From Gammaproteobacteria bacterium (GTDB lineage: Bacteria; Pseudomonadota; Gammaproteobacteria; Ga0077536): 64,000 bases of DNA. The notes under the pieces were generated by a model that saw only the letters and a program-made list of their open reading frames with translations, searched no databases and was not told the origin of the DNA. Shown one piece after another: positions 5,220 to 25,894 of the stretch. The position numbers and the translations under genes are program-made. Within the stretch, counting starts at the first letter, position 1, and every line of letters begins with the position of its first letter. The stretch spans positions 62,001-126,000 of the forward strand of contig SHZJ01000004.1 in NCBI GenBank assembly GCA_009692365.1, written 5' to 3'.

Positions 5220-5483
5220 TTGAAAACAATCTTAGAAGAGAAAAACACGATTTTAGGACAAAGTCCGGCCCTCACCGAGCTCGGTCTCGCGGTACGGCTG
5301 CGGCGGCGCTCAGTGCAACTCAAACAAAATGAACTCGCCGGTTTGGCCGGCGTGGGCCTGCGTTTCATCTCCGATCTCGAGCACGGCAAGCCGGGCCTGG
5401 AGATCGGTCGGGTGGTGCGGGTGCTCACGGCGTTGGGTCTAGAACTGCTGGTCGCGCCGCGTCGATGGTGGGCGCCGCGTTGA
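5220..5483 (+). CDS. HipB-like XRE-family antitoxin/repressor
   Basis: Small 87-residue DNA-binding protein. Residues about 22-75 form an XRE/Cro helix-turn-helix (LKQNELAGLAGVGLRFISDLEHGK) like that of HipB antitoxins, which repress their own operon and bind HipA. It starts with TTG at 5220; no ATG lies in a suitable place. The last 19 bp overlap the ATG of the HipA-like gene, as is usual in hipBA operons. Two inverted repeats lie just upstream and may be its operators. The final residues (APRRWWAPR) are basic and aromatic, and may be shaped by the overlap. Function rests on the fold and the pairing with the next gene. Confidence 0.82.
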   Translation: MKTILEEKNTILGQSPALTELGLAVRLRRRSVQLKQNELAGLAGVGLRFISDLEHGKPGLEIGRVVRVLTALGLELLVAPRRWWAPR

Positions 5484-6730
5484 CCCTCCCGGCCTTGGAA
5501 CTACGACTGGCGGGGACGTTGCGCGGGCAGCTCGTCCAGCAGGCCCCGGACTACTGGTCTTATCGCCCCTTGGTGGCCGGACCTCCGGCGGGCTTGGGGG
5601 CGTTCTGGTCAATTCGACAGTTAACGTCAATAACTAATCAAGAGACTGCTAACGTGCGCGCCTGGTTTCGACATTTACTGCCTGACGCCAGCGTCTGCCA
5701 CCAGTTGGCGCAGCGCCTGGGGTTTTCGGTGGGTAATGATTTTGCGCTCCTCGGCGCTCTGGGCGCCGATGCCCCGGGTGCGCTGAGTCTGCGCTGGCCG
5801 GGCGCGCGCTCGGCGGACCCGCCGGGATGTTTGACGGTGGCTGAAGTCGCCGCGCTGCTCGTCGCCTTGCGCGCAGCGCAGCCGCCCCCCCGGATTGCCG
5901 AGGCCACGGCGCCCGGCGATGCCGGCTGTGTGCCGCTGTGCCAGACGGCGCAGGGCTGGTGGTATCCGACGGCCGAGCGCCCGAGCAATGTGTGGCTGCG
6001 CGCGGGGCGCCACGGCTGGCCGGATGCCGTCCACAACGAAGCCTTCTGTCTGGGGCTAGCAGCGCGGGCCGGGGTGCCGGTGTTGGCCAGCGAGTGGGTG
6101 CAAAAGCCACTGCCGTGCTTGATCACAGCGCGTTCAGACCGCCAACGGAGTGGCCCGGAGCCCGTATTGGCGTGGGTGCACGAGGAGAACTTCGGGCAAA
6201 TTGCCGGTCTGGCGCCGGAGCAGGCGTTTGAGCGCGAAGGAGGACTGGCGCTGCGCGACTGTGTCGCTCTGATGAGGCGCCACAGCGCGGTGCCGGCGCT
6301 GGATTTGCGCACGCTGCTGCGGTGGGTGGTGTTCAATCACCTCGTGGGGAACGGTCTGGCCACCGCGCGCGATCTGCGCTTTCACTACACCGCGCAGGGC
6401 CCCAGGCTCGCCCCTTTCGCCAACCTGCTCTCCACCCATGTGTATGCGCAGGTGAGTGAGCGGCTGGGGATGATGGTCGGGCAGGAGGACCGCCCGGACT
6501 GGATCAGGCCGGCACGCTGGCGGGGACTCGCGCAGGAATTGGATTTGAACGCCCACTACGTGCTCGCGCTGGTCGGCGAACTCGCGCTCGCCATGCCGGG
6601 GTGGTTGGCGGCGCAGGTGCAGGCTTGGCAGGCGACGAACAGCTGGTCGCCGGTGCTGGCGCAGGTGCGCGAACTCGTGCTCAAACGTGCGCGGCAGCTG
6701 GCGGTGAGCTTAGCGGCAGAGCGTGCGTAA
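5465..6730 (+). CDS. HipA-like protein with degraded kinase motifs (putative pseudokinase)
   Basis: The 421-residue protein matches HipA serine/threonine kinases in layout. It has the N-subdomain with VRAWFRHLLPD near residue 64, the NEAFCLGLAARAGVPV helix near 191, and the FNHLVGN segment near 290 followed by RLAPF near 314. The catalytic loop, usually D-x-H-x-K-N, reads GLATARDL (297-304) here. The metal-binding F-Y-D reads FAN (318-320). Both catalytic aspartates therefore look absent. HipA normally phosphorylates glutamyl-tRNA synthetase and causes dormancy; this copy probably cannot phosphorylate. The frame is intact over its whole length, which argues against a recent dead gene. It overlaps the HipB-like gene by 19 bp. 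Confidence 0.78.
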   Translation: MVGAALTLPALELRLAGTLRGQLVQQAPDYWSYRPLVAGPPAGLGAFWSIRQLTSITNQETANVRAWFRHLLPDASVCHQLAQRLGFSVGNDFALLGALGADAPGALSLRWPGARSADPPGCLTVAEVAALLVALRAAQPPPRIAEATAPGDAGCVPLCQTAQGWWYPTAERPSNVWLRAGRHGWPDAVHNEAFCLGLAARAGVPVLASEWVQKPLPCLITARSDRQRSGPEPVLAWVHEENFGQIAGLAPEQAFEREGGLALRDCVALMRRHSAVPALDLRTLLRWVVFNHLVGNGLATARDLRFHYTAQGPRLAPFANLLSTHVYAQVSERLGMMVGQEDRPDWIRPARWRGLAQELDLNAHYVLALVGELALAMPGWLAAQVQAWQATNSWSPVLAQVRELVLKRARQLAVSLAAERA

Positions 6731-18094: not shown

Positions 18095-18424
18095 GTGCAA
18101 TACGTTTACTTAGTCACCGCGATCGTCTGCGAAGTCGTCGCGACCAGCGCGCTCAAGGCGTCAGATGGTTTTCGGGTGCTCGGCCCCACGGTGCTGGTGC
18201 TGGTGGGTTACACGGCGGCGTTTTTTCTCCTCAGCCTCACGCTGCGGACGATCCCCGTGGGCATTGCCTACGCGATTTGGTCCGGGGTAGGGCAGGTGCT
18301 GGTGATGTGCCTGGCGTGGGTGCTCTACCGGCAGACCTTAGACACCGCCGCCCTCGTGGGCATCGCGCTCATTTTGTTGGGGGTGATCGTGCTCAGTTTA
18401 TTTTCTAAATCGATGCCACACTAA
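18095..18424 (+). CDS. emrE: small multidrug resistance (EmrE-like) efflux protein
   Basis: Proton-coupled exporter of cationic drugs, four helices, inner membrane, dimeric. The 109 residues starting at GTG 18095 match EmrE in length and sequence: YVYLVTAIVCEVVATSALK with the essential membrane Glu (residue 13), GIAYAIWSGVG, and a C-terminus LFSKSMPH like that of EmrE. An upstream extension of the frame to 17948 is antisense to the MFS gene and not protein-like. It is divergent from that MFS gene with about 100 bp between starts. The Gly/Ala/Trp signature favours EmrE over SugE/Gdx. Confidence 0.9.
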   Translation: MQYVYLVTAIVCEVVATSALKASDGFRVLGPTVLVLVGYTAAFFLLSLTLRTIPVGIAYAIWSGVGQVLVMCLAWVLYRQTLDTAALVGIALILLGVIVLSLFSKSMPH

Positions 18425-18485: not shown

Positions 18486-19487
18486 ATGAGCGACCACCAG
18501 ATTTTTGAGATCCCGCGCTACCCCACCCAATCCGGCGTGACGCTCGATTTGAGGCTGAGCTATCGGACTTTTGGGCAGCTCTCACCGCAACGAGACAATG
18601 TGGTCGTGGTGCCTACTTTCTACGGCGGTCGCCATCCCGAGACCCAGTACATGGTGTCTCCCGAGCGGGCCATCGACCCCACCCGGTATTTTGTCATCAT
18701 CCCCGATATGTTCTGCAACGGGCTGTCCTCTTCGCCCAGCAACACGCCCGCGCCCTATGGTCGGGGTGGTTTTCCGCTCATGTCCCTGTACGACAATGTG
18801 CTCTGCCAACACCGTCTGCTGACCGAACATTTAGGGGTGAACCGCATCCAGTTGGTGGCGGGGTTTTCGATGGGCGGCATGCAGGCCTATCAATGGGGCG
18901 CGCTGTATTCCGGGCTGGTCGAGGCGATAGCGCCGATTTGCTGCGCGGCGCGAATTTCTGACCACAATTATCTGTTTGTCGACAGCGCCAAGGCGACGCT
19001 GATGCTTGATCCCGATTACAAAGACGGCTGGTACGAGACCCCACCGTTACGCGGCCTGCTGACCTTCGGCAAGGTGTACGCGGCGTGGCTGTTCTCGCAA
19101 GATTTCCTGCGCGAAAAACTTTATCGCAGCCTAGGATTACAGTCGCGGCGCGATGTCGTGCTGCTAACCCAGAACTATTTTCTGCAAAACGACGCCAACG
19201 ATTTGCTGGCGATGGCCGACACTTGGCTCACCGGCGATATCAGTGCTAACCCGCACTTCGAAGGGGATTTCAAGCGCGCGCTGGCCGCCATCACCTGTCG
19301 GGCCATCGTCATGCCCGCGCTCACCGACCAATACTTTCCGCCTGCCGACAGCGCCTTGGAAGTGCAGCAGATGCCGCGGGCCGAATTGCGCCCGATCCCG
19401 TCCGGCTGGGGCCATGGGGCGGGTTTCGGCTTGGCGCCGGCCGATAATGCGTTCATCGATACCGCCCTGCGCGAGCTGCTGGGCTAG
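18486..19487 (+). CDS. alpha/beta hydrolase of the MetX (homoserine O-acetyltransferase) superfamily
   Basis: A 333-residue alpha/beta-hydrolase. The nucleophile elbow is GFSMGG (near residue 126-131, Ser128); the acid is probably Asp in LTDQYFPP and the base His in GWGHGAGFG. The N-terminal half (LRLSYRTFGQLSPQRDNVVVVPTFYGG) follows the MetX layout. The MetX substrate-binding signature is altered (PTFYGG instead of HALTG), and the protein is shorter than true homoserine acetyltransferases. I therefore expect an esterase or acyltransferase with another substrate. It is the first gene of a same-strand run; the methyltransferase follows by 15 bp. Confidence 0.8.
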   Translation: MSDHQIFEIPRYPTQSGVTLDLRLSYRTFGQLSPQRDNVVVVPTFYGGRHPETQYMVSPERAIDPTRYFVIIPDMFCNGLSSSPSNTPAPYGRGGFPLMSLYDNVLCQHRLLTEHLGVNRIQLVAGFSMGGMQAYQWGALYSGLVEAIAPICCAARISDHNYLFVDSAKATLMLDPDYKDGWYETPPLRGLLTFGKVYAAWLFSQDFLREKLYRSLGLQSRRDVVLLTQNYFLQNDANDLLAMADTWLTGDISANPHFEGDFKRALAAITCRAIVMPALTDQYFPPADSALEVQQMPRAELRPIPSGWGHGAGFGLAPADNAFIDTALRELLG

Positions 19488-19502
19488 GGGCGGGGGTGCG
19501 GC

Positions 19503-20360
19503 GTGCCCAGCTCCGATAATCAGGCCCTAAGCCTTGCGCTCAACGCCCACTACGCGCCCGGCGATGTCTCCCGCCGGATCCTCGCTGCGGTACGCGCCGC
19601 GGGGCTCGATCCGCAGGAAATCTCGCGCGATGCCGCGGCGCTGTTTGATGAATTTCACGGTGGTGGGCGCGAATCCACCCGGGCCTTGGCACGGGCCGTG
19701 GGGCTGGCGAGCGGCGAGCGGGTGTTAGATGTGGGCTGCGGGGTAGGCGGCCCCGCGCGCACGCTGTGCGCCGAGTTTGGCTGTGCGGTGACGGGGGTCG
19801 ATTTAACCCACGAGTTCATCCTGGCGGCCAAGCTGCTTTCGCAGCGGGTGGGGATGGCGGAGCGCGTCACTTTTTTACACGGCTCTGCCCTGGCGCTGCC
19901 GGTAGCCGATGCGTCTTTCGATTGGGTCTGGTCGCAAAATATGTTGATGAACATCCCCGACAAACAGCGCTTCGCCCAGGAGATTAGACGGGTGCTAAAA
20001 CCGGGTGGGCGGTGTGCGATCGAGACGGTGGTAGCCGGGCAGGGCGACATCCTCTATCCCTGCTTTTGGGCGGCAGAGCCCGCGTTGAGCTTTGTCGCGA
20101 CCCCTGCAGCATTGCGCGCCGCCTTCAGCGCGGCCGGGCTGGAAGAGCAATCTTGGACCGACACCACGGCGCTGGTGCTGGCCCACGGCCAACGCCGGCT
20201 GGCGGGTATGCTGCCGGTGCCGGCGGGCGAGGCCGCCTCGGCAGCGCTGGGGATAGGCGTGTTAGTGCCAGACCGAGTGCTCGACAAAACGCGTAACGCT
20301 GTGCGCAACAACGAGGAAGGCCGCACGCTCGCCGTGCAGAGCGTCTGGCGGAGTCCCTGA
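19503..20360 (+). CDS. SAM-dependent methyltransferase (sarcosine/dimethylglycine N-methyltransferase-like)
   Basis: Class I methyltransferase of 285 residues. Motif I VLDVGCGVGG is at 74-83, the acidic post-I residue lies in GVDLTHEF (98-105), and motif II-like SFDWVWSQNMLMNIPDK is at 138-154. The DLT-EF and WSQ patterns resemble glycine/sarcosine/dimethylglycine N-methyltransferases and related small-molecule enzymes. It starts with GTG at 19503, 15 bp after the hydrolase, and the next gene begins 2 bp after its stop, so the three are surely co-transcribed. The methyl acceptor is unknown; an amine or amide is tempting given the dimethylformamidase-like genes downstream. Confidence 0.82.
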   Translation: MPSSDNQALSLALNAHYAPGDVSRRILAAVRAAGLDPQEISRDAAALFDEFHGGGRESTRALARAVGLASGERVLDVGCGVGGPARTLCAEFGCAVTGVDLTHEFILAAKLLSQRVGMAERVTFLHGSALALPVADASFDWVWSQNMLMNIPDKQRFAQEIRRVLKPGGRCAIETVVAGQGDILYPCFWAAEPALSFVATPAALRAAFSAAGLEEQSWTDTTALVLAHGQRRLAGMLPVPAGEAASAALGIGVLVPDRVLDKTRNAVRNNEEGRTLAVQSVWRSP

Positions 20361-20361
20361 G

Positions 20362-20751
20362 ATGTGGCGAGGCCAAGCCTTGGGTATTGCGCTGGCCGCC
20401 ACACTCGGCGTTGGGTGCAGCGAAGCAGCCCGCGAAACCGAGTTCGCGCGGGTTTCAGCACCCAGGGGCGAGTGGCAGATCATCACCACCGTTATCGAAC
20501 CCTGGGCGCCGCAGGGCCCACATTTCGTGGTGGTTTACGCCCAACTCGGCGCGCAGGGCGCACGCCTGCGGGTGGGTCGCGCAGAACTCGCCTACGACGG
20601 CATTCCGTTTTCGCGCCATAACATCAACCTGCGCTGGACCAGTGACACCGAGGCCTTGGTGTGCCTGCGGGCGAGCGACCGACCCGACCAAAGCGTGCAT
20701 GTCAATATCCGCAGCGCCGTTGCCACGGGCGTGCTGCGTAAGGGTTGTTAA
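20362..20751 (+). CDS. small exported protein, possible lipoprotein
   Basis: A 129-residue protein whose N-terminus (MWRGQALGIALAATLGVGCSEA) is a signal peptide ending in a near-lipobox (LGVGC). The spacing is imperfect, with Leu at -4 instead of -3, so either lipidation at Cys19 or ordinary cleavage is possible. The mature part has alternating hydrophobic residues suggesting a small beta domain and ends in Cys129. I do not recognise the family. It begins right at the methyltransferase stop. The 89-bp gap to the next gene could hold an internal promoter for the amidohydrolase genes. Confidence 0.6.
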   Translation: MWRGQALGIALAATLGVGCSEAARETEFARVSAPRGEWQIITTVIEPWAPQGPHFVVVYAQLGAQGARLRVGRAELAYDGIPFSRHNINLRWTSDTEALVCLRASDRPDQSVHVNIRSAVATGVLRKGC

Positions 20752-20840
20752 GACGAGTTCTGGCGGAGGATGACGCGGGGACCCGGGGTATGCCAGTCTG
20801 GGCACTGGGTTTAATGGTGAAAAAAAACGGAGGACGCCGT

Positions 20841-21287
20841 ATGCAGGACAAACGACATGCAGGCCCCGACACCGCGCTGGCGCGTAATTACGGCGCCAGC
20901 GCGGTTGACGACTACGACACCCAAACCTACATTTTGCCGCCACTACGCGACGCCGTGAGCCGCGCGCGGATCATCGCCGAGCATCGTGCACATCCGCGTG
21001 GCGCGGCGGCGCAGCCTGGCCACCGGCCACCTAATCACAGCCTTGACCTCAAACGGCTGAGCGACAAACTGCGCGTCTCGCCACAGGCCGGCAAACACAC
21101 CATCGTGGAAACCGTGCCGTGGCAGGAATATTCGATCGGTCTGCTGCCCGGCCGGCGTGGGGGTGTGATTCGCATCACCAAGGAGCGCTACGCCACCCGC
21201 GAGGACGCGGAGCACGCGATTTTTCTCAAGCGCCTGCGCTTGCTGCTGGACCAGTACGGGGTGGATTACTCAGCGTCGAATTCTTAA
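20841..21287 (+). CDS. N,N-dimethylformamidase small (alpha) subunit-like protein
   Basis: A 148-residue protein placed directly before a dimethylformamidase large-subunit homologue. Known enzymes consist of a small subunit of about 130 residues and a large one of about 760, encoded in this order. The N-terminal 65 residues are polar and probably extended. The C-terminal half (VETVPWQEYSIGLLPGRRGGVIRITKERYATREDAE) is a compact alpha/beta segment. CGGAGGA 6 bp before ATG 20841 fixes the start; the open frame upstream is not used. Identification depends mainly on gene order and length, so the subunit name is an inference. It should be cytoplasmic. Confidence 0.62.
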   Translation: MQDKRHAGPDTALARNYGASAVDDYDTQTYILPPLRDAVSRARIIAEHRAHPRGAAAQPGHRPPNHSLDLKRLSDKLRVSPQAGKHTIVETVPWQEYSIGLLPGRRGGVIRITKERYATREDAEHAIFLKRLRLLLDQYGVDYSASNS

Positions 21288-21304
21288 TTCTAGGGGCTGC
21301 TTTC

Positions 21305-23719
21305 ATGACTACGACCCAGCAGATGATGTTGCGAATCACCGGCTACACCGACCGTTGCTCGGTGCGTCCCGGTGAGGCCGTGACTTTTCACATTCACAGC
21401 GAATTCAACGAGCCCTATCAAGCCGACATCGTTCGCTTGATCCACGGCGATACCAATCCGGAGGGCCCCGGCTTCAAGGAAAAAATCGTCCGTTCGGCGG
21501 TCAGCGGGGAATATCAGGGCCAGCATCAGGCGGTGCACGCGGGCAGCTACCTATTGGTGCCACACGATCCGCGTTTGAACCTCCAGAGTTTTACGCTGTG
21601 CGCTTATCTGTATCCCACCACCCCGGTGGTGGACGTCGAAGGCGTGGCCGTGGGCGCCCAAGCCATTCTCTCCAAACTCAATGCCCGGGCTGGCACCGGG
21701 TATGGCCTATTCATCAACGAACGTGGTGAGCTTGCCCTGCGCATCGGGCGAGGACGGGGCCGGGTGGAGGAGTTCTCTACCGGCAAACCGCTGTTTCGCA
21801 AGGTTTGGTACAAAGTGGCGGCGAGCTATGACGCGCGCACCGGCGAGGTCTGCATTTCGCAAACGCCGTTTGTGACGATGACCAACGGTGGCCATGGTCT
21901 AAGTCTACTGCACCCGGCCGATGACACCGCTGCCAGCGTGCGTCATCGCACGACCAAAGGCGCACCGAAGGCCGCCGAAGGGCCGCTGCTGATGGCGGCC
22001 AGTACGCTCGCGCCGCACTCTGGCCGCCACGTGAGTGGTGCGCATTTTCGCCACCTCGATTCCCCGTGGGAGGTGCCGGTCCACTGCCATAAGTTCAACG
22101 GCAAGATCGAGCGTCCTAAAATTGCGAATACGGCGTTAGACGCCGCTCAAATTGAGTGCTTACTGGCCGGCGCGGGCATGGAGCTCATCCCGGCGGAACT
22201 ACGCGGGGCGATCGTCGCGGCGTGGGATTTCAGCGCCAATATCGCCGACCACGCGGCCTCCACCCATATCGTAGAAACCAGTCCCAATCGCTTGCACGGG
22301 GTGGGCATCAACCTGCCGGTGCGCGGTGTGACGGGCTTTAATTGGTCCTCGGACTACATGAGCTTTCGCCACGCGCCACAAGAATACGGCGCGATCCACT
22401 TCCACGACGAATCCGTAGACGACGCCCGCTGGACGCCATCGTTTACTTTCAAAGTGCCCAAGACGCTCAAGAGCGGCGTTTATGCGGCGCGCCTGCGCGT
22501 CAAAGGTTCCACCAGCGCTGAGTGCGAAGACTATGTGCCGTTCTTTGTGCGGCCGCCGGCCGCAGGTCCTACCGCGCGGATCGCCCTGGTGATGGCGATG
22601 CACAGCTACCTGGCTTACGCCAACGATAACCTCAGCGTGAACTCGGTGATTGCCCAATTGCTAACCGGGCAAGTGCCGTTGTTGCAACCGGGGGACCTCC
22701 TGCTCAATAAAGAGCGCGGCTATGGTTTGGGTACCTACACCAGCTACCGCGATGGTTGGGGGGTCAATATTTCCTCGCGCCTGCGGCCTATTCTCAATAT
22801 GCGCCCCAAATATATCCACGTGCTCTCGCCGTCGCTGTGGCAGTTCAACGCCGATTTGCATCTGGTCGATTGGCTCTACGAAATGGGCTACGAGGTCGAC
22901 ATCCTCACCGATGAAGATGTCCAACGCGAAGGCGTTGCGTTGCTCCAGCAGTACCGCATCGTGTTGACCGGCCACCACCCGGAATACATGTCTGAACAAC
23001 AAATGCAGGCCTATCAGGATTACCAGCAATGTGGTGGCCGTTTCATGTATTTGGCGGCTAATGGTTTCTACTGGGTTTGCCAGCCGCACCCGGAGAATCC
23101 CAACATTGTGGAGGTGCGCAAAGGCGATAACGGCACCCGCGCCTGGACCGTCTCGCCGGGCGAATATTGCAATGCCTTTGATGGCAAACACGGCGGGCTA
23201 TGGCGGGTCCGTGGCCGCGTCATGAGCAAACTGCTAGGCGTGACTTTTACCTCTTTTGGCCTGACGTATTCGTCCTACTACCGGCGCGCACCCGACAGCG
23301 AACTGCCGGAATGCAGCTGGATGTTTCGTGGCATTGGGCGCAATGAACCCATCGGCAACTTTGGTTTGGTGGGCGACGGCGCGGCGGGTTTGGAGTTGGA
23401 CCGCTACGACTTGGAACTTGGCACGCCGCATCGCGCTTATCTGCTGGCGAACTCCGAAGGCCACTCAGATATGTACGTCTCGGTGACCGAGGAATCCACC
23501 TTCAACGCGCGTGGTTATATCCCCGGCGGGACCGGCGATAACAACCCGAACACGCGTGCCGACATCGTCTACTACAAAACTCCAAGGGACGGCGCGGTGT
23601 TCTCGGTCGGGTCCATGGCGTGGTGCGGGTCCCTGTCGCATAACCGATACAACAATAATGTCTCGCGCCTGCTGCGTAATACTATCGATGGTTTCCTCAA
23701 GCCGGGGGCCTTGCCTTGA
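21305..23719 (+). CDS. N,N-dimethylformamidase large (beta) subunit-like amidohydrolase
   Basis: An 804-residue protein with two parts. Residues about 80-320 form a LamG/jelly-roll-like region (SFTLCAYLYPTTP, VWYKVAASYDARTGEV, AAWDFSAN). Residues about 345-800 form the dimethylformamidase beta-subunit catalytic domain. The known enzyme hydrolyses DMF to dimethylamine and formate with a mononuclear iron held by two Tyr and a carboxylate. Candidate ligands here are Tyr438 (HSYLAYAND), Tyr478 (GTYTSYRDG) and Glu560 (GHHPEYMS), with His558 adjacent. No signal peptide is seen. The start at ATG 21305 follows AGGGG. The next gene overlaps its stop (TGATG). The true substrate may be another small amide. 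Confidence 0.85.
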   Translation: MTTTQQMMLRITGYTDRCSVRPGEAVTFHIHSEFNEPYQADIVRLIHGDTNPEGPGFKEKIVRSAVSGEYQGQHQAVHAGSYLLVPHDPRLNLQSFTLCAYLYPTTPVVDVEGVAVGAQAILSKLNARAGTGYGLFINERGELALRIGRGRGRVEEFSTGKPLFRKVWYKVAASYDARTGEVCISQTPFVTMTNGGHGLSLLHPADDTAASVRHRTTKGAPKAAEGPLLMAASTLAPHSGRHVSGAHFRHLDSPWEVPVHCHKFNGKIERPKIANTALDAAQIECLLAGAGMELIPAELRGAIVAAWDFSANIADHAASTHIVETSPNRLHGVGINLPVRGVTGFNWSSDYMSFRHAPQEYGAIHFHDESVDDARWTPSFTFKVPKTLKSGVYAARLRVKGSTSAECEDYVPFFVRPPAAGPTARIALVMAMHSYLAYANDNLSVNSVIAQLLTGQVPLLQPGDLLLNKERGYGLGTYTSYRDGWGVNISSRLRPILNMRPKYIHVLSPSLWQFNADLHLVDWLYEMGYEVDILTDEDVQREGVALLQQYRIVLTGHHPEYMSEQQMQAYQDYQQCGGRFMYLAANGFYWVCQPHPENPNIVEVRKGDNGTRAWTVSPGEYCNAFDGKHGGLWRVRGRVMSKLLGVTFTSFGLTYSSYYRRAPDSELPECSWMFRGIGRNEPIGNFGLVGDGAAGLELDRYDLELGTPHRAYLLANSEGHSDMYVSVTEESTFNARGYIPGGTGDNNPNTRADIVYYKTPRDGAVFSVGSMAWCGSLSHNRYNNNVSRLLRNTIDGFLKPGALP

Positions 23720-24135
23720 TGGCTAGGCGCAGGGCCGTCGAGGTAGCCCTCAAACGCGATGAAAACTGGTGGTTACACCCGGTACTGCGCGGCCAGCAAT
23801 CGCTGCCGCTGAACGCCGGGGCCGGGGCGATGCCGCATCGCTGGGTGCGTTCCGACGGCACCCTCGAACCCCTCGAAACGTCGCTGGAGGTGGACAGCCC
23901 CTACGCTGACTTCGCCAAAATTCTCTACCGCTTGAACGGTGCTCGACCCGGTCCGGTGCGCGGCTTTTATGTAATCGTGGAGATTGAGAAAGGGCGCTTT
24001 GCGGTGGGCCAACTCTGTGCGGACCCGGCGCTGCCAGTGCATCTATTCGAAGACTTGGTGTACCCCTGCGAAGCACAGGCGAGAACGAAGGCTGCCGAAT
24101 TACGCGCCCTGGCGCCGGGTATCGGGGCGCTATGA
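23719..24135 (+). CDS. unrecognised small protein of the dimethylformamidase-like operon
   Basis: A 138-residue, apparently soluble protein that I do not recognise. Its ATG overlaps the stop of the large amidohydrolase subunit, and its own stop overlaps the crotonase ATG by 4 bp, so it is translationally coupled on both sides. The N-terminal third is basic with NWWLHPV; the middle contains a regular beta-like stretch (GFYVIVEIEKGRFAVGQLC); the C-terminus is helical (CEAQARTKAAELRALAPG). No metal motif, signal peptide or membrane segment is evident. Tight coupling suggests an accessory or third subunit, or a chaperone-like partner. Confidence 0.66.
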   Translation: MARRRAVEVALKRDENWWLHPVLRGQQSLPLNAGAGAMPHRWVRSDGTLEPLETSLEVDSPYADFAKILYRLNGARPGPVRGFYVIVEIEKGRFAVGQLCADPALPVHLFEDLVYPCEAQARTKAAELRALAPGIGAL

Positions 24136-24908
24136 GTCTGGGCGTGGAAGTTCAGCGGCACCCACGGGCGCCCGGCGAGGTGGTGGTCTTTGTGCTCCAC
24201 GGCCGCACGGCGCTGAACGTCGTGGGCAGCGAGTCGCTGCGCGCGGGTACCGCCACTATTCGCCGCGCCGCACAGGACCCCAAGCTGCGTTGCGCGGTCT
24301 TGGCGGGCCCCACCCCAGACAGTTTTATCGGCGGAGCCGACCTCAAAGAACTCGGTGCGCTCACCACGCAAACCGCCGAGGCGTTTATCCGCAGCATCCA
24401 CGATTTTTGCACCGCCCTGCGCGAATTCCCCACCCCCGTGATCGCCCGCATCGCGGGCCATTGTTTGGGCGGTGGCTTGGAGATCGCTGTGGCCTGCGAT
24501 CTGCGCGTCGCGGCCAGCGACAGCCGCTTCGGCATGCCCGAAGTACGGCTGGGTGTGCCCTCGGTGGTCGAAGCCGCCCTGTTGCCAACGCTCATTGGCT
24601 GGGGCCGCACGCGCGAATTACTCTTGCGTGGACATCTCATCGAGGCCCAGACCGCACAGGCGATTGGCCTGGTGGAACAGGTGGCGAGTCCGGCAATGCT
24701 AGAGGCCAGCCTAGATCGGGTCATCGATGACCTCCTCGCCGGCGCCCCGGGGGCTATTCGAGCCCAGAAAAAACTGCTCCAGCGCTGGGAACAACTGCCC
24801 TTGGACGAGGCGATAGAGGCGGGCGTGGCCGCCTTCGTGGCGTCCTACGAGACCGCCGAGCCCGCTACTTACTGCGCCCGTTTTTTTGCCCGCCGCCGCC
24901 CTGAATAA
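24132..24908 (+). CDS. enoyl-CoA hydratase/isomerase (crotonase) family protein
   Basis: A 258-residue crotonase. The oxyanion-hole segments FIGGADLKEL (65-74) and GHCLGGGLEIAVACD (109-123) are present. So are both acid/base glutamates expected of a hydratase, Glu117 and Glu137 (FGMPEVRLGVP). The usual glycine pair after LG-x-x-P is replaced by SVVEAALL, so the active-site floor differs from housekeeping hydratases. It starts within the stop of the preceding gene (ATGA). The enzyme acts on CoA esters in the cytoplasm, suggesting that the operon handles an acyl-CoA as well as an amide. The substrate is unknown. Confidence 0.86.
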   Translation: MSLGVEVQRHPRAPGEVVVFVLHGRTALNVVGSESLRAGTATIRRAAQDPKLRCAVLAGPTPDSFIGGADLKELGALTTQTAEAFIRSIHDFCTALREFPTPVIARIAGHCLGGGLEIAVACDLRVAASDSRFGMPEVRLGVPSVVEAALLPTLIGWGRTRELLLRGHLIEAQTAQAIGLVEQVASPAMLEASLDRVIDDLLAGAPGAIRAQKKLLQRWEQLPLDEAIEAGVAAFVASYETAEPATYCARFFARRRPE

Positions 24909-24955
24909 GTCCTGGTGGGGCGTTTCACGCCATCTCGAAGTCCGGAGGTCGACCG

Positions 24956-25894
24956 ATGCCTAACTCACCGCTGTTCGTACTCAATGCCTTGGTGGTGCGG
25001 GGGGATAGCTCGCCGCCGCAGGGCGAGCGCCGGGCACGCCCCGGCTACAACGTTAATCGCGCCGGCGAGGGGATAGAAGACCCCGCCACCCGCGATCGCA
25101 CCTTGGCGATGTCGCCCACGCCGCAACTCGAGTGGGAAGCCTATGACGAGTATTGGCGCAAGGTGCACGGCCCTAAAATTCTGCATCCCGATGGCCCGCA
25201 CGACCAGCAAACCGGGGTGCTGACCTATTATCTACAGCAGCACCGCCTCCCGGCAGGGCCCTGTAGCCAGCGCGCCCCGCCTTACGCGCCGCCGCTCGAT
25301 GCTCAGGGCTTGTTGCCGCGGGCGCCGGCCGCGAGTTGCGCGGTTCATGTGCGCCCGGCCTTCGATGGCATGGCGCAGCTGGGCTACCGTACGCGGACCG
25401 ATTTGGAAGCCTTCTTTGCGACGGAGGGCACCAAGTACGGCGAGAAAATCATGCCGGACGAAGCGGTGTTTATCCGCGGTTTTGCCTTCCATGTGGCCGA
25501 AGAACATGTGGTGATCCAGCGTGGCGAGGGCCGCCGCGATCCGGTCATTTTGACCAAGCTGCACCAGCGTGCCAGCGGCTGGTCGCGGGAGGCGTTTCGC
25601 GCACGCTGGATGGCCCAACATGCCGATCTGCTCCGCAGCTTGAGCGGCGGGGCCGGTTTGGTGCGGCGTTACGCGCAACTGGTGAACGTCGGCCGGGAGG
25701 GCGACACGCTGTTTGATCCGGTGGGCGACCGCTATGACGGGATCGGGGTTTATTCGTTCGCTAACATGAACGACTGCGAGGACTTCGTCGGCGGCGCGGA
25801 CCATGCCGCGTTAGTGGCAGACGAACACCACTTCGCGGCGGCGTCCAGTTTTTTTACGACCCTTAATTACGTCATTTGCGATCACACGACCTAA
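24956..25894 (+). CDS. protein with two EthD-like ferredoxin-fold modules
   Basis: A 312-residue protein that reads as a tandem of two dimeric-alpha/beta-barrel (EthD-like) halves. The first has WEAYDEYWRKVHGPKI near residue 60, matching the W-x-x-YW-x-x-HGP pattern. The second has WSREAFRARWMAQHADLLRSL near 210 and VRRYAQLVNV after it. EthD proteins accompany oxygenases and hydrolases in degradation loci, and related folds act as small-ring isomerases or monooxygenases. GGAGG lies 10 bp before ATG 24956. It is 47 bp after the crotonase gene and probably ends the operon. The catalytic role is not shown. Confidence 0.75.
   Translation: MPNSPLFVLNALVVRGDSSPPQGERRARPGYNVNRAGEGIEDPATRDRTLAMSPTPQLEWEAYDEYWRKVHGPKILHPDGPHDQQTGVLTYYLQQHRLPAGPCSQRAPPYAPPLDAQGLLPRAPAASCAVHVRPAFDGMAQLGYRTRTDLEAFFATEGTKYGEKIMPDEAVFIRGFAFHVAEEHVVIQRGEGRRDPVILTKLHQRASGWSREAFRARWMAQHADLLRSLSGGAGLVRRYAQLVNVGREGDTLFDPVGDRYDGIGVYSFANMNDCEDFVGGADHAALVADEHHFAAASSFFTTLNYVICDHTT

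Follow-up and report, generated by a model that had tools for sequence, protein, structure and literature searches.

Results

The amidohydrolase genes of the unit

The window, the whole stretch of 64,000 nucleotides that was analyzed (G000:C36:62001-126000), belongs to a gammaproteobacterial genome (G000, the source genome; assembly of 3.45 Mb, 93% complete) and carries at positions 18,486 to 25,894 a unit of eight genes on the + strand, with successive gaps of 15, 1, 89, 17, -1, -4, and 47 bp. At its center are genes related to N,N-dimethylformamidase (DMFase), an enzyme known from the breakdown of an industrial solvent, N,N-dimethylformamide (DMF). The coordinates bear out an earlier note on this DNA, which had described eight same-strand genes with gaps from -4 to 89 bp, and the homologies named there (DMFase-type amidohydrolase, methyltransferase, MetX-like hydrolase, crotonase, and double EthD protein) are confirmed by Pfam and NCBIfam matches and by sequence matches in the PDB. 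The same note had taken the amidohydrolase for a two-subunit homologue, which needs correction, as three genes are found: the gene after the large subunit β encodes a further small subunit, α', which is homologous to the small subunit α. DMFase has an α2β2 composition, and the window has α and β followed by this third, α-homologous gene.

The homology between α and α' is seen when their family profiles are aligned with hhalign, which gives a probability of 96.3% and a score of 61.4 over 73 columns. The controls score at most 18.4 for seven unrelated families, 16.2 for the reversed profile, and at most 27.5 over 200 column shuffles. This is also in agreement with the reciprocal profile hits, where 35 of 9368 open reading frames (ORFs) are matched by both profiles, all of them adjoining a β gene. 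The α' protein itself has no Pfam match and no significant PDB match, and its predicted model is confident over residues 61 to 138 only.

Related loci were collected by a scan across the genome collection, retaining the best 80 of 442 related stretches, which correspond to 79 loci. Over these loci and those taken from individual genome contigs, α' adjoins 98 of the 117 β genes, these counts being of places and not of genomes, since some contigs were fetched twice (for example, L036 and L067). The 19 β genes without α' are six of class C (defined below), four alphaproteobacterial ones (L069-L071 and L078), four from Binatia/Deltaproteobacteria (L072, L073, L075, and L077), two on plasmids (L134 and L135), and three at contig ends. 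A literature search, with most subscription journals outside its reach, gave no earlier account of a further small subunit in DMFase.

The iron site and the pocket of the β-subunit

The β-subunit matches PF20254 at 300 bits (cut-off 27), and its residues 9 to 801 align over the full length of the DMFase large subunit (6lvb_A); the match with N-acetyl-(R)-β-phenylalanine acylase (8huy) is weaker (5.6e-124). The start is placed at the ATG at 21305 by the matched protein, compared with 21119 in the mechanical ORF. According to the published DMFase study (PMC7686228), the iron is bound by Y399, Y440, and E521, and the catalytic histidine is H519. The equivalents in the window β-subunit (Y438, Y478, E560, and H558), being two tyrosines, a glutamate, and a histidine, are all retained. 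These four positions are also kept in each of the 90 usable rows of the β alignment, which had 93 rows before L010_g, L022_g, and L029_g were removed because of wrong reading frames.

The pocket differs from that of DMFase at two positions, Ser518 and Leu394 both being replaced by histidine, and Phe693, which narrows the DMF pocket, is retained. Position 518 lies beside the catalytic histidine, and it is a histidine in all 31 rows that are at least 61% identical to the window protein and in none of the 59 others. In the following, the window-type β-subunits are referred to as class A, the sister type as class B, and the type of the copy on contig C13 of the source genome as class C. In a tree of 79 of the 93 rows, from which many near-identical class B rows of marine cells had been omitted beforehand, classes A and B form one clade separate from DMFase, with long branches leaving the placement of the DMFase and acylase rows uncertain, and class C groups with DMFase. 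We regard the core as a new DMFase-family variant.

The neighboring genes

Table 1. Genes of the unit and the matches by which they were assigned.
Feature	Position in the window	Strand	Basis
Small multidrug transporter (SMR, EmrE/Qac-like), probable first gene of the unit	~18095-18424	+	Pfam Multi_Drug_Res 4.4e-29
MetX-like alpha/beta hydrolase, PRK07581 subfamily	18486-19487	+	NCBIfam NF005757, 414.8 bits (cut-off 332)
S-adenosylmethionine-dependent methyltransferase, GTG start	19503-20360	+	Pfam Methyltransf_11 5.3e-25
Small lipoprotein-like protein	20362-20751	+	N-terminal hydrophobic stretch then Cys
DMFase-type small subunit α	20841-21287	+	6lvb_B 2.1e-6; profile 6.5e-16
DMFase-type large catalytic subunit β (class A)	21305-23719	+	PF20254 4.1e-89; 6lvb_A 1.4e-169
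α', second small subunit, 138 residues	23719-24135	+	Profile homology to α
Crotonase (enoyl-CoA hydratase family, PRK06143 subfamily)	24132-24908	+	NF004795, 291.3 bits (cut-off 283)
Double EthD-domain protein	24956-25894	+	PF07110 1.4e-20, 2 stretches

The SMR gene lies 61 bp upstream of the MetX-like gene on the same strand, its GTG start being placed from the start of the profile match. An SMR gene is found immediately 5' of the MetX-like gene also in L035, L038, L160-L163, L166, L168, L173, and L177, and from this arrangement it is probably part of the conserved unit, extending the list of eight genes. The nearest solved relative of the MetX-like protein is 5e4y; assignment as a true homoserine O-acyltransferase MetX was rejected, as the equivalog scores are 128.4 (cut-off 500) and 120.4 (cut-off 331). 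The 25 best NCBIfam matches of the methyltransferase all stay below their cut-offs. Relatives of the lipoprotein-like protein, for which the Pfam search gave no match, are present in L035, L049, L162, L163, L172, and L173. When the crotonase is aligned with 5z7r, both glutamates of the hydratase motifs, which we take to be the two catalytic ones, are retained, so that by its profile and by both glutamates it qualifies as a member of the enoyl-coenzyme A (CoA) hydratase/crotonase family. The PDB sequence search gave no relative of the EthD protein, and its AlphaFold model (pLDDT 49) is too poor for use.

The longest same-strand run in the window is 10 of 51 genes, and 5% of strand shuffles reach it; same-strand order is thus weak evidence for an operon, and conservation across genomes was relied on instead. 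A scan for promoter-like sites (2, with 2.1 expected) and terminator-like sites (13, with 9.1 expected) was uninformative. Judging from the conserved order described below, the genes of the unit are probably cotranscribed.

Conservation and separability of the gene order

The order MetX-methyltransferase-α-β-α'-crotonase-EthD is found in seven of the nine genomes of the genus, so that it is not unique to the source genome. It is unbroken in G000, G001, and G004 and split by contig ends in G003, G005, G006, and G008; a lipoprotein gene is called in G000 and G004 only. Partial forms occur in G023 (methyltransferase-lipoprotein-α-β-α'-crotonase) and in G028 (lipoprotein through crotonase).

The flanking genes also occur on their own. 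In G002 (L160) and in G016 (L161), which is of another genus, a dCache chemoreceptor (MCP) and an SDR gene replace the amidohydrolase, giving the order SMR-MetX-MCP-SDR-methyltransferase-crotonase-EthD; in L161 the positions of the methyltransferase and EthD genes, missed by the gene caller, come from tblastn-type searches. The chemoreceptor, a dCache/PAS protein of about 1100 residues (L160:6563-10051 and L161:7108-10347), fills the place after MetX. G007 has MetX-SDR-methyltransferase-crotonase and no class A β gene. Genus g8 has SMR-MetX-lipoprotein-EthD without amidohydrolase in L162 and L163, and MetX-lipoprotein in L172 and L173. The amidohydrolase in turn occurs in other settings, as in G002, G027, G030, and G035 class A has as its neighbors class B, genes of the GS-like, PhyH, and GATase types, or both. 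Since the modules occur apart, it follows that two modules have been joined in this genus and that the amidohydrolase has no obligate partners in the flanking enzymes; its three genes lie inside the transport/hydrolase module here, the direction of the joining being putative. The operon as read in the earlier note has to be corrected, as the neighbors stem from a separate module, and guilt by association could mislead here.

Relatives of the methyltransferase and the MetX-like protein (36-52%) also cluster with an acetoacetate decarboxylase-family protein, an SDR, and a GNAT protein in other genera (L174, L175, and L176). A photolyase-related protein (PF04244) is encoded near the module in two genomes (window:30794-32398 and L160:14051-15592).

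Comparison with known systems

The window unit shares with the Paracoccus DMFase (DmfA1A2; 6lvb) a small and a large subunit, β homology over the full length, the iron ligands, and the catalytic histidine. It differs in having the second homologous small subunit, histidine for Ser518, and a position in a separate clade, and within the window no LuxR-type regulator gene adjoins the operon. The acylase 8huy has the large-subunit family and the iron ligands in common with the window β-subunit, but it is more distant and has a serine at position 693, which is Phe or Tyr in DMFase and in class A. The second dmfA1-dmfA2 locus of the Paracoccus aminophilus plasmid pAMI5 (L134) resembles the unit in having α and β, but α' was not found there; in the accessible part of its published description, no link of this locus to DMF use was found (PMC4543880).

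Marine genomes, among them those of SAR11 and HIMB59-like bacteria, commonly carry class B, which is found there beside rhodopsin, flotillin, alpha/beta hydrolase, and SSF symporter genes. For the FArhodopsin cluster, known from SAR11, HIMB59, and Pseudothioglobus, a published study (PMC10308929) lists an 'N,N-dimethylformamidase', and since the gene set and the taxa are the same, the marine class B loci presumably correspond to these clusters. Like the window unit, they have α, β, and α', the β-subunit being about 56-58% identical; they differ in being of class B and in adjoining rhodopsin, flotillin, and SSF symporter genes and not MetX, crotonase, or EthD genes. In L088-L131 (SAR11, HIMB59-like, and others), class B α-β-α' units are mostly within the rhodopsin/flotillin cluster.

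Class A is next to flotillin in L061, L068, and the Aminobacter plasmid L132, and the latter has a branched-chain-type ABC transporter by class A. In L069, L070, and L078 a class II aldolase gene is followed by class A-type α and β genes without α' and then by nitrile hydratase α and β-N genes. This transporter and the nitrile hydratase are counted as support for an amide role.

Outside the window, the source genome holds two more DMFase-type β genes, one of class B (C36:4759-7143; L033), adjoining GS-like, PhyH, and GATase genes, and one of class C (C13:7527-9782; L034), adjoining a luciferase-like monooxygenase gene.

Genes for methylated amines

The HODM-type dimethylamine demethylase (PF11927) is absent from the source genome in the family search. 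Elsewhere in this genome (L187), GMAS, above its cut-off, is found with GATase_6, GXGXG, glutamate-synthase, and sarcosine-oxidase-like genes, a set that we take to be the N-methylglutamate pathway of methylamine use. GMAS is present in 20 of the 23 family genomes searched, in 19 of them above the cut-off. The closest relative, G004, has a dimethylamine monooxygenase cluster of DmmA, reductase, HODM, and GCV_T (L189). The earlier note had pointed out that no dimethylamine-oxidizing gene accompanies the unit; such an absence from the window carries little weight, as G000 has the methylamine cluster and G004 has the cluster of L189.

PF11927 is found in five of the seven operon carriers (G001, G003, G004, G005, and G008) and in none of 16 other family genomes (Fisher p 6e-4), nor is it found in 10 further family genomes. 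Gene families were looked up for the neighborhoods in G003 and G004, and the dmm-type cluster is seen in G004 only. The G003 copy (L193:3675-7634), a haem-dependent N-demethylase-like protein, lies beside DUF1501 and DUF1800 genes, unlike the dimethylamine monooxygenase setting, and identity to the G004 copy is only 26-27% for those of G001, G003, G005, and G008. Given this context and this identity, the co-occurrence was dropped as support for DMF use. Among the listed genes of the Aminobacter DMFA1 plasmid, no dimethylamine genes are found at 168000-216559 and 25000-74000, which cover, besides the class A region, about 97 of 217 kb in an incomplete gene table.

Discussion

The reading that we favor, with a probability of about 0.58, is that of a three-protein iron amidohydrolase acting on a small N-substituted amide and housed in a separable module. 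The core would be a ferric-iron enzyme of the DMFase family, built from β and two different homologous small subunits, in which two tyrosines and one glutamate of β would coordinate a single Fe(III) and β would hydrolyze the C-N bond of the amide, generating an amine together with formate or a short acid. The three amidohydrolase genes would have been joined, in this genus, to a transport/hydrolase module of SMR, MetX-like, lipoprotein, EthD, methyltransferase, and crotonase genes. The sequences themselves show the family, the iron ligands, the homology of α and α', the conserved order, and the separability of the modules; assembly of α, β, and α' into one complex, an amide as substrate, methylamine as product, cotranscription, and the direction of the joining are inferred. 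A small N-substituted amide is the most likely substrate. DMF itself is probably not the substrate, given the histidine in place of serine beside the catalytic histidine. As the source genome has GMAS and N-methylglutamate genes and no member of the known family of dimethylamine demethylases, the most economical, reasoned guess would be a mono-N-methyl amide such as N-methylformamide. It is reported that the catalytic efficiency of DMFase is highest on N-methylformamide (PMC7686228).

Several observations weigh against this reading. The α' profile does not match the DMFase small subunit among the PDB sequences, a Foldseek search with the α' model finds no solved fold at E 0.001, and in VIA-align the DMFase small subunit (6lvv_B) has rank 4, with Z 3.3 over 71 residues, level with unrelated chains. 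α' is not required for every class A enzyme, since L069-L073, L075, L077, and L078 are without it. Phe693, as noted, is kept. GMAS is a possible sink for the amine, but being family-wide it is not specific to the operon carriers, and absences in the source genome are not final because of the 93% completeness.

A true DMF hydrolase, generating formate and dimethylamine, with the latter handled elsewhere, would fit the retained iron site and Phe693 equivalent, the plasmid-borne class A three-gene units of the Aminobacter niigataensis strains DMFA1 and MD1, and the DmmA/reductase/HODM/GCV_T cluster of the closest relative. We consider it unlikely, given that the clade is separate from DMFase, that both Ser518 and Leu394 are changed to histidine, and that HODM is absent in G000 and adjoins DUF1501/DUF1800 instead of dmm genes in G003; the physiology of strain DMFA1 was not found in the literature searched. 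The doubt that the earlier note had raised about DMF as the substrate is supported by the histidine at position 518 throughout class A, by the tree, and by the missing HODM. Distinctly unlikely is its proposal that the enzymes of the unit process an amide and a CoA ester jointly. The order in seven genomes, the tight spacing, the catalytic glutamates of the crotonase, and the methyltransferase-to-crotonase and lipoprotein-to-crotonase runs of G023 and G028 speak for such a single pathway of all eight enzymes. Among the operon genes, however, Pfam and NCBIfam show neither a CoA ligase nor an acyl-CoA dehydrogenase or a thiolase, and the parts occur separately: the module is without amidohydrolase in L160-L164, L172, and L173, and the amidohydrolase is beside GS-like/PhyH/GATase genes in L036, L037, L039, and L040. 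Taken as a whole, the earlier interpretation is partly supported.

The operon may also be a mere genomic location, the amidohydrolase acting in a γ-glutamyl-amine pathway with class B, GS-like ligases, a PhyH oxygenase, and a GATase encoded elsewhere. GS-like/PhyH/GATase genes are indeed next to class B in G000 (L033) and next to class A and/or class B in G002, G021, G027, G030, and G035, and of 36 family genomes, 20 have both classes, 3 class A alone, 1 class B alone, and 12 neither (read by eye; Fisher p 4e-6, uncorrected for relatedness). Such a pathway is nevertheless improbable, as the SAR11-type clusters have no such genes next to class B and as the GS-like proteins, scoring under the type III cut-off, are putative ligases.

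The most useful new point is that the lake operons share a duplicated small subunit with the rhodopsin cluster of marine bacteria. The DMFase family divides into clades in which a further, homologous small subunit is present, in lake and ocean bacteria for which DMF would be an unlikely diet. The substrate of one such complex would reveal the small amide used by the carriers and what the rhodopsin/flotillin cluster handles. A more speculative, rather unlikely extension is that the α-β-α' iron amidohydrolases would be a natural, pre-industrial branch of DMFase, with a widespread aquatic use of N-methylated small amides in the lake operons and in the rhodopsin/flotillin cluster of SAR11 and its marine neighbors, the methylamine entering the N-methylglutamate pathway.

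The public contigs of L053, L058, and L085, which carry these DMFase-type genes and are titled as Klebsiella pneumoniae metagenome-assembled genomes, match uncultured gammaproteobacteria, and their titles appear to be wrong. The window also encodes, at 5465-6730, a HipA-like protein with HipA_C and Couple_hipA domains.

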